A DNA stretch of 38,503 bases, from contig PWTO01000198.1 of NCBI GenBank assembly GCA_003562815.1, forward strand, positions 1 through 38,503. Direction: 5' to 3'. This DNA comes from Chromatiaceae bacterium. GTDB taxonomy: Bacteria > Pseudomonadota > Gammaproteobacteria > Chromatiales > Chromatiaceae. Shown in pieces: positions 20,547 to 25,291 of the stretch. The notes below the pieces were generated by a model. It saw only the letters and a program-made list of their open reading frames with translations. It searched no databases and was not told where the DNA came from. Within the stretch, counting starts at the first letter, position 1, and every line of letters starts with the position of its first letter. The position numbers and the translations under genes are program-made.

Positions 20547-21683
20547 GTGCCATCCACCAGCCGAATCCGTGGTGGCGAGTCGCGTCCCCAGTCGTTGTTG
20601 CTTGGCGCGGCCTTCATCGTGCTCGGTGAGTGCTGCTTTGCGTCGATGGGGGTCGGCATTCGCGTGGTCTCGGCCGAATTGCCGAACGCCATGATCGTGT
20701 TCGGGCGCAATCTGATTGGGTTGATGCTGCTCGCGCCCTGGCTGCTGCGCCACGGCATTGGCGATGTCAAAACCAGGGGGCCGGGCCTGCATCTGCTGCG
20801 CGCGGTAGCGGGTATCGCCGCGATGTACTGTTTCTTCCATGCGATCGCCGAGCTGCCCCTGGCCGAGGCCATGCTGCTCAAGCTCACCGCGCCGATCTTT
20901 ATCCCGTTGATCGCCATCGCTTGGCTGCATGAGCGAGTCACCGGTCTGCTCTGGGTCGCGCTCGGGATCGGCTTCGCCGGCGTGATCCTGATCCTAGAGC
21001 CCGATCCGAGCCGGGCTTGGGCTGGGATCTCGCCGGTGGCGTTGATCGGTCTGCTGGGGGGCGTGCTGGCGGCGGTGGCCAAGGTCACGGTACGCCGACT
21101 TTCGCGCAGCGAGTCCACCGGGCGCATCGTCTTCTACTTCGCGCTCATCGGTGGCTCGATCTCGGCGCTGCCGTTGTTCTGGAGCTGGCAGACGCCGACG
21201 CCGAGCGCGCTGCTCTGGCTGCTCGGCATCGGCATCGCCGCGACCCTGGGCCAGTTGGCGCTGACGCGCGGCCTGTCCTTGGCGCCGGCCTCGCGCATGG
21301 GTGCCTTCGGTTATTTTTCGGTGGTGTTTGGCGCCGGCTATGGCTGGCTGCTGTGGGACGAGCCGGTCACGCTGGCGGTCGCGCTGGGCAGCCTGTCGAT
21401 CGCCGTCGGTGGTCTTCTGGCAAGCCGCTCGTGGCAGCCGCGGGCGCTTGAGGCCATGCGCCCACGCGCCTCATCCACCGACAGCGCGACGACAAAGGCG
21501 GCGGCAAAGAACAGCGCACAGAATAGGATCGCGCCCTGGAGTCCGATCCAGGCCTGCAGCAGCCCAACTCCGACGAGGCCGATCGCCCCGGCCAGCTTGA
21601 GCGACAGCCCCCAGAAGCCGAAGAACTCAGCGGCCCGTTGCGGCGGCGACAGGAGCCCGACGAGCGTGCGCCCGGCCGACTGA
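20547..21683 (+). CDS. EamA/DMT-family transporter with a read-through tail
   Basis: Inner-membrane protein with about ten hydrophobic helices and the duplicated EamA domain of drug/metabolite exporters, such as the RhaT or YdcZ-like S-adenosylmethionine and amino-acid exporters. Helices include SLLLGAAFIVLGECCFASMG, LPLAEAMLLKLTAPIFIPL (a typical EamA segment) and GYGWLLWDEPVTLAVALGS near the end. The start is GTG 20547 with only a weak ribosome-binding site. The membrane domain ends near residue 297 (about 21440). The frame then continues about 80 residues as a hydrophilic Ser/Pro/Ala/Arg-rich tail, lying antisense to the convergent UMF1 transporter, before TGA at 21681-21683. The tail has no family similarity that I can see. 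Substrate unknown. Confidence 0.85.
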   Translation: MPSTSRIRGGESRPQSLLLGAAFIVLGECCFASMGVGIRVVSAELPNAMIVFGRNLIGLMLLAPWLLRHGIGDVKTRGPGLHLLRAVAGIAAMYCFFHAIAELPLAEAMLLKLTAPIFIPLIAIAWLHERVTGLLWVALGIGFAGVILILEPDPSRAWAGISPVALIGLLGGVLAAVAKVTVRRLSRSESTGRIVFYFALIGGSISALPLFWSWQTPTPSALLWLLGIGIAATLGQLALTRGLSLAPASRMGAFGYFSVVFGAGYGWLLWDEPVTLAVALGSLSIAVGGLLASRSWQPRALEAMRPRASSTDSATTKAAAKNSAQNRIAPWSPIQACSSPTPTRPIAPASLSDSPQKPKNSAARCGGDRSPTSVRPAD

Positions 21684-22762
21684 CAGGAGCCGAGCGCCAG
21701 GCCGGCGACGCCTCCGGCGAGCAGGAACAGATGCTGCGCCTGCCAATCGCTGCCACTGAGACGGTTGACCGCCTCGGTGAGCGGCGGGGTGGCCCAGATC
21801 AACAGGATGGCGACGATCCAGATCAGCAGCGTCGCGAGGTAGGTGCGTTTCGCCCCCCAGCGATCCTGGAGCAGACCGAAGGCAATCGCCCCGAGCGCAG
21901 CGCTGATCTGGGTGGTGATGAACATCAGCGTGCGTACCGACTCATCCCAGCCGATGACCTGGGCGCCGTAGATGAAGGCGTAGGCGATGATGACGTAGAG
22001 CCCTGCCATCGCCAGCAGCAGGGAGACGAGGAAGCGGGCGAGGTCGCGCAGCTCGCCGAGGCTGCGCAGCGTTCGCAGGAGCCGACGCCGGCCGATGGCC
22101 GCGTAACTGGTGCCGAACGGCAGGGGCTGCGGCCGTCCGCGCTCACGCAGCCAGAGGAAGGTCGGAATCGCGCAGACCAGGAAGAAGGCGGCGGCGAAGG
22201 GGCCGACCCAGCGCATGCGCTCGACGTTCTCGGCGCTGACCTCGCCGAGCACGACGAGCGCAAAGGCGGTCGCGCAGAGCCCACCGATGTAGCCGAGCGA
22301 CCAGCCCAGCCCCGAGACCCGCCCCATCTCCCCAGGCCCGGCGATATCGGGCAGGAAGCCAGCGACGAAGGACTCGCCCATCGAGTAGGCGTAGTTGGAC
22401 AGCGCGATGAGCAGCAGACCAAGGACGACAAAGCCCGGCTCGACCCAGTACAGCGCTGCGGTCGCCACGACGGTGGTGATGTAGCTGACGAACAGGAAAC
22501 GCTTCTTGGCCGCAGCGTAGTCCATGATCGCCCCGCACAGGGGTGCGGTCACGACCACGGCCAGGTAGCTGAACGCCAGCGCGGCGCTCCACAGCAGGTT
22601 GCCGAGCCGGTAGTCGTCGCCGCTGTCGCCGACGATGACGCGGGTGAAGAGATCGCCATAGATGACGGTGATGATCAACAGGGTGTAGGCCTGGTTAGCG
22701 AAGTCGAACATCGCCCAGCCGAAGACCTCTCGCCCTGACGCTCTACTTGTTGCCCAGATCAC
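21338..22762 (-). CDS. MFS transporter of the UMF1 (Atg22-like) family
   Basis: 474 residues with about twelve membrane helices. The N-terminus EVFGWAMFDFANQAYTLLI is the signature of the UMF1 family, which includes fungal vacuolar Atg22 and many bacterial MFS permeases; further family segments are GESFVAGFLPDIAGPGEMGR and GLGWSLGYIGG. The start is GTG 22762, preceded by GGAGGG at good spacing. The conserved part ends at VDEARGRM (about 21458). About 40 more residues then run into the 3' region of the convergent EamA gene before the stop at 21338. Amino-acid efflux is the usual guess for this family, but nothing here fixes the substrate. It is divergent from the RoxA-like gene. Confidence 0.88.
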   Translation of the reverse strand: MIWATSRASGREVFGWAMFDFANQAYTLLIITVIYGDLFTRVIVGDSGDDYRLGNLLWSAALAFSYLAVVVTAPLCGAIMDYAAAKKRFLFVSYITTVVATAALYWVEPGFVVLGLLLIALSNYAYSMGESFVAGFLPDIAGPGEMGRVSGLGWSLGYIGGLCATAFALVVLGEVSAENVERMRWVGPFAAAFFLVCAIPTFLWLRERGRPQPLPFGTSYAAIGRRRLLRTLRSLGELRDLARFLVSLLLAMAGLYVIIAYAFIYGAQVIGWDESVRTLMFITTQISAALGAIAFGLLQDRWGAKRTYLATLLIWIVAILLIWATPPLTEAVNRLSGSDWQAQHLFLLAGGVAGLALGSCQSAGRTLVGLLSPPQRAAEFFGFWGLSLKLAGAIGLVGVGLLQAWIGLQGAILFCALFFAAAFVVALSVDEARGRMASSARGCHERLARRPPTAIDRLPSATASVTGSSHSSQP

Positions 22763-22827
22763 AGTTGCCCTCCGTTCTCGGTTGAATGATTTCGCATCCG
22801 CTCACCGCACACAGGAACGTCTTTGCC

Positions 22828-24030
22828 ATGACCGATGACATCCGCTTCCCCGAACTCAGATTCCCCGACGGGCTGAACGCCGCGTCCTTCCTGCAGCGCT
22901 ACTGGCAGCGCGCGCCTCTGCTGATGCGTCAGGCCTTGCCCGGCCTTGCCAACCCGTTGCCCGGCGACGAACTGGCCGGCCTCGCGTGCGAGCCCGATGT
23001 CGAGTCACGGATCGTGCTGGAGGGCACGGAACAGGGGTCGTGGCAGGTGCAGCACGGGCCGTTCGATGCCGAGCGCTTTGCCGCGTTGCCGCCGAGTCAC
23101 TGGACGCTGATGGTGCGGGATGTCGATAAGCATATCCCCGAGATCGGCGCCTTGCTCGAGCGCTTTGGGTTTCTGCCGCGCTGGCGGATCGACGACCTCA
23201 TGGTCAGCTATGCCGAGGATCAGGGCTCGGTCGGCCCGCATGTCGTTGATGACGATGTGTTTCTGATCCAGGCCGAGGGGCGTCAGCGCTGGCGCATCGC
23301 GACCGATCCGCAACCGCCGCTGGCGCCGATTCCAGGGCTTGAGAGTCGGGTACTGCAGCCGTTCCAGGCAGATCGGGCGTGGCTGCTGGAGCCAGGCGAC
23401 ATCCTCTATCTACCGCCTGGCGTTCCTCATTGGGGGATTGCCGAGGGGGCTTGTCAAACCTGGTCGGTGGAGTTGCGTGCGCCGGCCTGGCGCGAGCTGG
23501 CCGATGAGTGGCTCGCGCAGGTGGCCGATCGGTTCACACCCGCCGGGCGTTGGCGCGATCGCCAGCCCGTCGTGGCGCCGCAGACCCCGGCCGAACTCGA
23601 TGCCGAGACGGTCCACGCGCTGCGGGCGAGCATCGAAGCCGGTCTTGCTGCGGCCAGCAGCGACGATTTCCAGGCTTGGCTTGGTGCTTGGCTGACCGAA
23701 CCGAAGCTCAATCTGGACTTGGAGCCGTCCGATCCGCCTTGGTCCGTTGACGATGTCGTCGCGATGTTGGAGACCCACGGGCGGGTTGAACGCGACGGGC
23801 GCTCGCAGCTGTTATTCGCCGGCCCAAGCGCCGACGGCACGGCGGTGTCGCTATTCGCCAATGGGCAAGCGCACCGCCTGCCGAGCGATCTCTTGCCGTT
23901 GGTCTCGCTGTTGGCCAACAGTCGGGTCGTGGAACGCGAGCGCATCGGGCACTGGCTAGGGCGCGAGGAGGTCAGGGGGCTCTTGGGCGCATTGTTCAAT
24001 GCTGGCCACTTTCTGCAGCCGCAGCCCTGA
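22828..24030 (+). CDS. roxA: RoxA-like (YcfD) ribosomal oxygenase, JmjC/cupin family, with altered iron motif
   Basis: 400 residues (E. coli YcfD/RoxA, 373). RoxA hydroxylates an arginine of ribosomal protein L16 using Fe(II) and 2-oxoglutarate. The order of features matches: FLQRYWQRAPLLMRQALPG near the N-terminus, the WTLMVRDVDKHIPE region, the first iron motif near residue 138, PPGVPHWG with H201, and a winged-helix-like C-terminus. In E. coli the first motif is GPHLDQYDVF with ligands H125 and D127. Here it is GPHVVDDDVF, so the aspartate position is Val140 and acidic residues come one to three places later. The distance H138-H201 (63) agrees with E. coli (62), so this is not a misalignment. 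I start at ATG 22828 (AGGA at 22812); an earlier ATG at 22786 has no ribosome-binding site. Confidence 0.85.
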   Translation: MTDDIRFPELRFPDGLNAASFLQRYWQRAPLLMRQALPGLANPLPGDELAGLACEPDVESRIVLEGTEQGSWQVQHGPFDAERFAALPPSHWTLMVRDVDKHIPEIGALLERFGFLPRWRIDDLMVSYAEDQGSVGPHVVDDDVFLIQAEGRQRWRIATDPQPPLAPIPGLESRVLQPFQADRAWLLEPGDILYLPPGVPHWGIAEGACQTWSVELRAPAWRELADEWLAQVADRFTPAGRWRDRQPVVAPQTPAELDAETVHALRASIEAGLAAASSDDFQAWLGAWLTEPKLNLDLEPSDPPWSVDDVVAMLETHGRVERDGRSQLLFAGPSADGTAVSLFANGQAHRLPSDLLPLVSLLANSRVVERERIGHWLGREEVRGLLGALFNAGHFLQPQP

Positions 24031-24049: not shown

Positions 24050-24628
24050 TTAACGATCGACCTTGGTGATGACGACGCGCCGCTGCTCGACCGAGAACGG
24101 ACTGTATTGCCGGAGTAACTCGCGCTCGCCGCGGCTTTCGGGCGGAGCGAGCAGTGCTTCTGGATAACCTTGGGCGATGAAGTAGTCACGCACCGCCCGC
24201 GCTCGCCGCATGCCCAGTTCCATGTTGTAGGCATCGGAACCCCGCGCGTCGGTATGGCCGACGATGGTCACGTATTCGCGCGCGGGAGAGCGCTGCAACC
24301 GATCGATATAGCGGTCGAGCGTGGCGATCGCCCAGCGATTGACCACCGTATCTGGAACGATGTACTCATCGAACTCGAAGAGCAATTTGACTGTGATCTC
24401 TTCTGGCACCCGGGCATCGCCGCAGGCTGGTAGGCGCTGCCTGTTGGGGTCTTCCCAGCAGTCGCCAAAGCTGGGTTCTGGTCCCCAAAAGCTTGTCGAA
24501 GGTGAAGCTGCGCGCGGCGCCTCGGCGCCGGCCGTGCCGTCGTAGAATCCCGCGCCTGTCGTCGCTGGGAAGAGCAGCGTTGCGCAGGCGACACAGGCGG
24601 CGATGACGACGGTTGGAAAGGGCTTCAC
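24050..24628 (-). CDS. OmpA-domain envelope protein, copy 1
   Basis: About 192 residues with an N-terminal signal peptide (MKPFPTVVIAACVACATLLF) and a C-terminal OmpA-type peptidoglycan-binding domain. The domain is shown by ITVKLLFEFDEY, VTIVGHTDARGSDAYNMELG and MRRARAVRDYFIAQGYPE, with the Asp and Arg that hold diaminopimelate. A short linker with two cysteines (FGDCWED and LPACGD) precedes it. No beta-barrel and no lipobox are present, so it is probably a periplasmic, wall-binding protein. The start is uncertain: GTG 24628 gives a regular signal peptide, while an upstream TTG at 24643 lengthens it by five residues; neither has a clear ribosome-binding site. It lies downstream of a close paralogue and converges on roxA with a 19-bp gap. 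Confidence 0.88.
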   Translation of the reverse strand: MKPFPTVVIAACVACATLLFPATTGAGFYDGTAGAEAPRAASPSTSFWGPEPSFGDCWEDPNRQRLPACGDARVPEEITVKLLFEFDEYIVPDTVVNRWAIATLDRYIDRLQRSPAREYVTIVGHTDARGSDAYNMELGMRRARAVRDYFIAQGYPEALLAPPESRGERELLRQYSPFSVEQRRVVITKVDR

Positions 24629-24663
24629 GGCGATTGAGGCCAAGGCGGGCTGGAACGGGGGAA

Positions 24664-24688
24664 GCCGGCTAGAGCGAGGCTAGCCGGC
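24664..24688 (-). terminator. Strong hairpin between the two OmpA-domain genes
   Basis: Perfect 9-bp inverted repeat: GCCGGCTAG (24664-24672) and CTAGCCGGC (24680-24688) with a 7-nt loop. On the minus strand it begins 10 nt after the stop of the upstream OmpA gene and is followed by TTCCCCCG rather than a T-run. It may be an imperfect terminator or an RNA-stabilising hairpin that lowers expression of the second gene relative to the first. Confidence 0.5.
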
Positions 24689-24697
24689 AAAAGCGCG

Positions 24698-25291
24698 TTA
24701 CTGACCGACAACCTCGCTGCGCAACACTACGCGGCGCTGCTCGAGTGCAAACGGGTCGTACTGCGGCAGGAGATTACGTTTGCCGACGCTTTCGGCTGGG
24801 GCGAGCAGGCGCGACGGGTAGCCCTGGGCGATGAAGTAGTCACGCACCGCATTGGCGCGGCGCTGGCCCAACGCCATGTTGTAGGCGTCCGAACCCTTGG
24901 CGTCGGTATGACCGATGATGGTGATGTATTCATCGAACGGGGACGCCTTGATCTTGGCGATATAATCGTCGATCTCGGCCAAGACGTTACGGTTGACCAC
25001 GGTCTCCGGTACCTGGTAGCGATCGAACTGGAACAGCAGTTGTACGCTGATCTCGGGCGGAACCGCCATTTCACGCTCACAGGGCGGCAGGTTGCTCGGG
25101 CCGCCGGCACTCTGCCAGCATTCGCCATAGCTGGTCGCCCACAGCTGACCATTTGGGGTGTTCTGATCGCCGGCGGCATACCAGTAGTTTTCGTCGTAGT
25201 CTTGAGCGGTTGCGGCGCTGCCAAGGACCAGGGCGGCGGCAGCGGTACAGGCAACTGCGGCGTTGCGGAAGGAAGTCGTGGTGATGAACAT
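24698..25291 (-). CDS. OmpA-domain envelope protein, copy 2
   Basis: 197 residues. A signal peptide with an AATAQ-type cleavage site near residue 29 is followed by a short acidic, aromatic region (DYDENYWYAAGD). A two-cysteine linker (YGECWQ and LPPCERE) comes next, then an OmpA peptidoglycan-binding domain with ISVQLLFQFDRY, ITIIGHTDAKGSDAYNMALG and QRRANAVRDYFIAQGYPS. The ATG at 25291 has AGGAG upstream. The downstream gene is a clear tandem duplicate, sharing both cysteines, the domain and the terminal EQRRVV(L/I) motif; the sequences between these points have diverged. This copy, with its own leader and ribosome-binding site, is likely the better expressed. Probably periplasmic; partner proteins unknown. 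Confidence 0.9.
   Translation of the reverse strand: MFITTTSFRNAAVACTAAAALVLGSAATAQDYDENYWYAAGDQNTPNGQLWATSYGECWQSAGGPSNLPPCEREMAVPPEISVQLLFQFDRYQVPETVVNRNVLAEIDDYIAKIKASPFDEYITIIGHTDAKGSDAYNMALGQRRANAVRDYFIAQGYPSRLLAPAESVGKRNLLPQYDPFALEQRRVVLRSEVVGQ

Follow-up and report, generated by a model that had tools for sequence, protein, structure and literature searches.

YcfD, also called RoxA, is the uL16 Arg81 hydroxylase of E. coli (structures 4LIT, 4NUB and 4CCL). The solved relative that is closest to the protein described here is YcfD of R. marinus (4CSW, 4CUG). Iron is bound in this protein by the triad H133, D135 and H196, and R148 is predicted to bind the C5 carboxylate of 2OG (PMC5862935, accessible part). 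The pocket receiving the target arginine is walled by Y137 and M120, with D118 and S208 as the hydrogen-bond partners of that arginine (PMC5862942, accessible part). A review from 2015 described the function of Arg81 hydroxylation as unknown (PMC4682802, in its accessible sections), and a binding role of RoxA beside catalysis has been suspected (PMC4295552, accessible portion). In E. coli, RoxA additionally shows epistasis with YcaO, the uL16 thioamidase (PMC13063428, available portion). In a literature search covering partial texts and few subscription papers, no description of a catalytically inactive RoxA from bacteria turned up. Natural RoxA proteins whose residues for iron, 2OG and substrate are gone while the fold is kept, and of which one set is under purifying selection, could make it possible to separate binding from catalysis without engineering.

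The roxA gene of the window and its relatives

The window, i.e., the whole stretch of 38,503 nucleotides that was analysed, contains the only roxA copy of its genome. The gene and its domains are located as follows.

22828..24030, + strand: roxA (ycfD) homologue, 400 aa from the ATG at 22828, with JmjC_2 and ROXA-like_wH domains (Pfam); best solved match 4csw_A
23152..23499, + strand: JmjC_2 domain, residues 109-224 (Pfam, 101 bits)
23656..24009, + strand: ROXA-like winged helix, residues 277-394 (Pfam, 56.5 bits)

An additional in-frame ATG is present upstream at 22786, and a start at this codon would add 14 amino acids. In phmmer searches the protein matches YcfD of R. marinus (4csw, E 2.8e-87, 40% identity) and of E. 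coli (E ~1e-57) over almost the full length. The AlphaFold model, built on an input alignment of 22 sequences (the window protein plus 21 of 23 loci from a pattern search), has a mean pLDDT of 88.2 and superimposes on 4csw with TM scores of 0.85/0.88 and on E. coli YcfD with 0.81-0.83 by query. The model carries no metal and is thus silent on iron. The window protein has, in other words, both domains and the fold that are expected of an active RoxA. The NCBIfam search of the protein assigned no family. The reading frame is free of internal stops over its 400 codons, as the preliminary description had held in calling the gene otherwise intact, and shows no indel relative to the roxA of the nearest relative.

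For comparison, RoxA sequences were gathered from the family, from an even sample of the class and from close matches in the pattern search. From 253 loci, 15 were excluded (eight uL16 loci, three pieces of the gene of genome G143 and four neighbourhood stretches), leaving 238 loci and 235 distinct rows. The 23 pattern-search loci favour close matches, and some species occur twice via two collections. The alignment stands without the matches from G034, G052, G158 and G159 (family) and from G393 and G572 (class). A search at order level covered 210 genomes, as many as the family search, and contributed no further matches. Within the genus, five of the seven other genomes have roxA and two have no match. 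Named relatives with roxA are Halochromatium salexigens, H. roseum and Lamprobacter modestohalophilus, whose RoxA proteins are orthologues with 70-79% identity. In the tree, the window protein pairs with L025 (genome G004) with support values of 99/97.

Active-site positions

The nine codons at 23233-23259 encode residues G136-P-H-V-V-D-D-D-V144. The phmmer alignment is gapless at this motif, GPHVVDDDVF facing GPHLDQYDVF of E. coli YcfD and GAHIDNYDVF of R. marinus YcfD. The preliminary description had stated that the aspartate of the HxD motif is replaced by valine while both iron histidines remain, and this is borne out by the phmmer and the enlarged alignments alike. It had also proposed looking among relatives for a fixed valine; the valine is not fixed, as all five genus relatives with roxA read GPHVDDYDVF, together with GRRRW. 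Four further departures came to light, i.e., Y142D, R153Q, G215E and Q97R, each at a column whose conservation in the first set of sequences is 95% or higher. The positions concerned are listed below.

23116..23118, + strand: R97 replacing a common Gln; Arg in 3 of 235 rows (window, L046 and L049)
23239..23241, + strand: H138, first iron ligand position, retained
23245..23247, + strand: V140 (GTT) replacing the HxD Asp
23251..23253, + strand: D142 replacing the substrate-pocket Tyr (R. marinus Y137; role from PMC5862942, in part); Tyr in 231 of 235 rows
23284..23286, + strand: Q153 (CAG) replacing Arg, the predicted binder of the 2OG C5 carboxylate (R. marinus R148; role from PMC5862935, in part); Arg or Lys in 230 of 235 rows
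23428..23430, + strand: H201, second iron His, retained
23470..23472, + strand: E215 replacing a conserved Gly two residues past S213; Gly in 227 of the 231 rows with a letter

Column 140 is nearly invariant. Asp is found in all 109 other distinct rows of the first set and in 233 of the 235 rows of the enlarged set, window included, the two remaining rows having Val (window) and Asn (L227). Column 97 is less conserved in the wider set (Gln in 181 of the 229 rows with a letter). R. marinus numbering is converted to window numbering by adding 5, and all eight positions land on the expected residues: H133, D135, H196 and R148 correspond to 138, 140, 201 and 153, and Y137, M120, D118 and S208 to 142, 125, 123 and 213. 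Compared to the R. marinus enzyme, the residues matching D135, R148 and Y137 have been replaced; compared to the E. coli enzyme, D127 has become Val, R140 Gln and Y129 Asp (numbering counted from H125), and the Gly two residues past the strand Ser has become Glu. The iron triad is therefore reduced to H138 and H201, with V140 between them, the basic residue for the C5 carboxylate is Gln, and the arginine pocket keeps D123, M125 and S213 and has Asp at position 142. At the DNA level, two or three substitutions are one way to derive the motif, and a GTT insertion combined with a TAC deletion is another; in either case the motif keeps its length, and V140 still occupies the Asp position.

As judged from these alignments, damage extends to the iron site as well as to those for co-substrate and substrate, and the protein has very probably lost its activity as a uL16 hydroxylase. 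The substrate is present in the same genome, uL16 (L121) reading EVRMGKGKG, and its Arg81 would be unhydroxylated in this organism.

Whether the departures concentrate in the active site was evaluated against eight literature-defined pocket sites, the four dead rows being excluded when column conservation was calculated. At 90% conservation (56 columns) the window protein departs at five columns, three of which are pocket sites (P 0.017); at 95% (43 columns) three of four departures are pocket sites (P 0.016); at 97% and 99%, two of three are (P 0.10 and 0.19). This pattern leans, though not strongly, to an active site freed from constraint in a protein that retains its fold. It also counts against decay, because random decay would not favour pocket sites.

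Gene neighbourhood and selection

Upstream of roxA, the window differs from its relatives. Two genes are concerned.

20547..21683, + strand: eamA-type transporter gene; DNA homology to relatives ends at 21430, and from 21449 the sequence is that of the locus of the transporter gene below
21338..22762, - strand: Atg22-like MFS gene between eamA and roxA (Pfam ATG22); 89% identity over residues 1-438 to G004:C74

In L002, L003 and L004, the loci of the three named relatives, the gene order is purB-eamA-roxA-ompA-ompA-UDG, and the Atg22-like gene is absent from the eamA-roxA junction. Their RoxA proteins also differ from that of the window in having the canonical motifs. The stop codon of eamA and the start codon of roxA overlap as ATGA in L002 and L003, and lie about 100 bases apart in L004. 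In the nearest relative, the 89% identical orthologue of the Atg22-like gene is on a different contig. DNA homology between the window and L002 ends at 21430 and restarts at 22846, and the stretch 21449-22761 matches the transporter locus L255; the former upstream surroundings of roxA, down to the bases ahead of its start codon, are therefore gone. The transporter gene appears to have moved into the eamA-roxA junction. Its 3′ end runs into antisense eamA sequence, and the eamA tail is replaced. A sigma-70 scan of 22500-22900 gave no match, with 0.1 expected by chance. On the other side, roxA is adjoined by a tandem pair of OmpA-family genes on the - strand (24050-25291), each encoding 197 aa, and the genes are likewise paired in L002, L003 and L004.

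Selection was estimated with our own codon model of the GY94 type with F3x4 frequencies. The omega of the window roxA branch is 0.276 vs. 0.118 for the rest of the tree (6 taxa, 399 codons; 2dlnL 9.4), 0.25 vs. 0.12 without the five changed codons (2dlnL 6.8) and 0.241 vs. 0.110 in a 389-codon fit (2dlnL 7.3). Residues 1-220 have an omega of 0.156 vs. 0.078 (t 1.61, 2dlnL 4.6) and residues 221-400 of 0.685 vs. 0.157 (t 0.44, 2dlnL 7.5). All roxA omegas are rough, given the large synonymous distances and the disagreement of the two halves on branch length (t 1.61 vs. 0.44). For the same branch, the control genes gave 0.029 vs. 0.045 for purB (4 taxa), 0.131 vs. 0.119 for ompA1, 0.066 vs. 0.063 for ompA2 (a fit that is degenerate for the sister branch), 0.097 vs. 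0.051 for eamA (2dlnL 3.7) and 0.158 vs. 0.081 for the UDG-family gene (4 taxa, 2dlnL 2.6). The sister branch of roxA itself reaches 0.194 vs. 0.116 (2dlnL 2.4). The window roxA is under relaxed selection.

This affects the reading of the preliminary description, which had taken the intact gene as a sign of changed function rather than decay. With selection relaxed and the upstream junction broken, early decay is at least as likely. Several observations do speak against decay: there is no stop or indel, omega = 1 over the whole branch is rejected (2dlnL 12.3), and the omegas of the sister branch, eamA and the UDG-family gene are somewhat raised as well. The rejection of omega = 1 is, however, equally expected if the branch was functional for most of its length. 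In a simulation with 15% of the branch evolving neutrally, a share obtained by arithmetic from the omega excess, 26% of the runs stayed stop-free, and the intact frame is therefore compatible with recent neutrality.

RoxA in phototrophs and competing explanations

Photosynthetic reaction-centre genes are present in 77 of the 210 family genomes, including that of the window and three genomes of a second genus, g48, in which roxA is dead or broken. A roxA match of any length, fragments included, was found in 17 of these 77 phototrophs vs. 80 of the 133 other genomes (Fisher p 8e-8, uncorrected for kinship). The dead RoxA proteins of the window and of g48 suggest that phototrophs of the family are repeatedly abandoning a ribosome modification that depends on oxygen. 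Simple loss of aerobic metabolism is ruled out as the cause by a haem-copper oxidase in all eight genomes of the window's genus; that this lineage still uses oxygen also weighs against the explanation preferred below. The Arg81 motif of uL16 is likewise retained in all eight, two of them without roxA. As for YcaO, TIGR03549 was discarded as a model, since the E. coli control falls below its cut-off and 68 of the 69 matched genomes match only in the first 180 positions. PF18381 (YcaO_C, E 1e-10) matched the E. coli control and none of the 210 family genomes. The RoxA-YcaO pairing of E. coli is not apparent in the family by the PF18381 model, though RoxA is common.

In genus g48, a RoxA match is present in three of eight genomes, all three with H138Q and R153H, and five genomes have none. 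L046 and L049 have intact reading frames and share Q97R, M125T, H138Q, Y142V, R153H and G215A, to which L049 adds H201R. The third copy, L110 (G143, an assembly of 670 contigs), lies in pieces with stops and retains M125 and Y142. A single origin of the dead forms is ruled out: uniting the window protein with L046 and L049 in one clade lowers the log-likelihood by 77 (p-AU 9.6e-12, for a grouping picked after the first tree). By this topology, the site loss in g48 is independent of that in the window. The window protein and the L046/L049 pair both lost Q97, Y142, R153, G215 and an iron ligand, yet g48 lost H138 and not D140, and its intact copies are under strong purifying selection towards each other. 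L046 and L049 differ at 51 codons and 19 residues of 401 codons, with an omega of 0.114 (2dlnL 58 vs. omega = 1) that is alike in both halves (0.096 and 0.130). Because the two copies have the dead site in common, this selection most likely acted after the loss.

The explanation to which we give somewhat better than even credence is that of a catalytically dead RoxA in a lineage no longer needing uL16 hydroxylation, the window gene probably being in early decay. The protein would have kept the RoxA fold and lost Arg81 hydroxylation through D140V (iron), R153Q (2OG) and Y142D (substrate pocket). The organism, a phototroph in a family in which most phototrophs have no roxA match, may no longer need this oxygen-dependent modification; relocation of the transporter gene would have uncoupled roxA from eamA, and roxA would now be at an early stage of decay. 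Site loss, relaxed selection and junction change are observed together in the window lineage, in whichever order they arose.

A dead RoxA may instead be kept as a pseudoenzyme for uL16 binding, holding or delivering the protein for late 50S assembly, with only the constraint on the active site released. This is possible but distinctly less probable for the window. The catalytic motif is indeed lost in the aligned set while the frame is intact; in E. coli, RoxA is copurified with tagged uL16 (PMC13063428, available portion), and sequestration of uL16 has been put forward as a role of the protein (PMC4295552, accessible portion). Moreover, the same conserved columns were hit in both lineages: the window protein and L046 share departures at columns 95, 142, 153 and 215 at 90% conservation (P 9e-4) and at 142, 153 and 215 at 95% (P 0.006), but only at two columns at 97% (P 0.03) and at 99% (P 0.06). 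Purifying selection after the loss is seen in g48, whereas the window gene is relaxed, most strongly in its C-terminal part; g48 in turn lacks a match in five of eight genomes and has one broken copy. A non-catalytic role is accordingly better supported in g48 than in the window, where early decay after loss of need and coupling is likelier than non-catalytic retention. The broader proposal that phototrophic purple sulfur bacteria at least twice made RoxA a non-catalytic uL16-binding protein, selected for ribosome assembly once hydroxylation had been abandoned, is tentative and seems rather doubtful.

An oxygenase with altered chemistry is improbable. Both histidines are retained and three aspartates follow directly, so that H138 and H201 might hold iron together with a shifted Asp (141-143), or on their own with an open site as in the HxA/G halogenases. 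Centres with two histidines and chloride are known, and some 2OG hydroxylases tolerate loss of the Asp. The HxA/G halogenase centre has a small residue at the Asp position and keeps 2OG binding, whereas the window protein has Val and R153Q. The phmmer alignment offers no gap to shift the register. A shifted ligand restoring hydroxylation is unlikely, and would hardly restore the RoxA reaction because R153 and Y142 are lost too; nor is there a common new ligand set, because in the g48 lineage it is a His that is missing and not the Asp. A sequencing or assembly error in a normal roxA is scarcely credible in spite of the 321 contigs of the window assembly, considering five separate substitutions at conserved codons over about 350 bases, 400 stop-free codons, normal-looking uL16 and neighbouring genes, and the matching loss pattern of other genomes.

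A few other RoxA sequences deviate from the canonical form. L227 (G472:C468) has D140N and L107 (G009:C16), a gene split over two contigs, has H138N, the other catalytic positions examined being canonical in both. L210 (G543:C50:73100-74270) has an intact iron triad together with A97, A123, R142, Q153 and T213. Here the pocket and the 2OG arginine have changed together, which possibly points to a different substrate.
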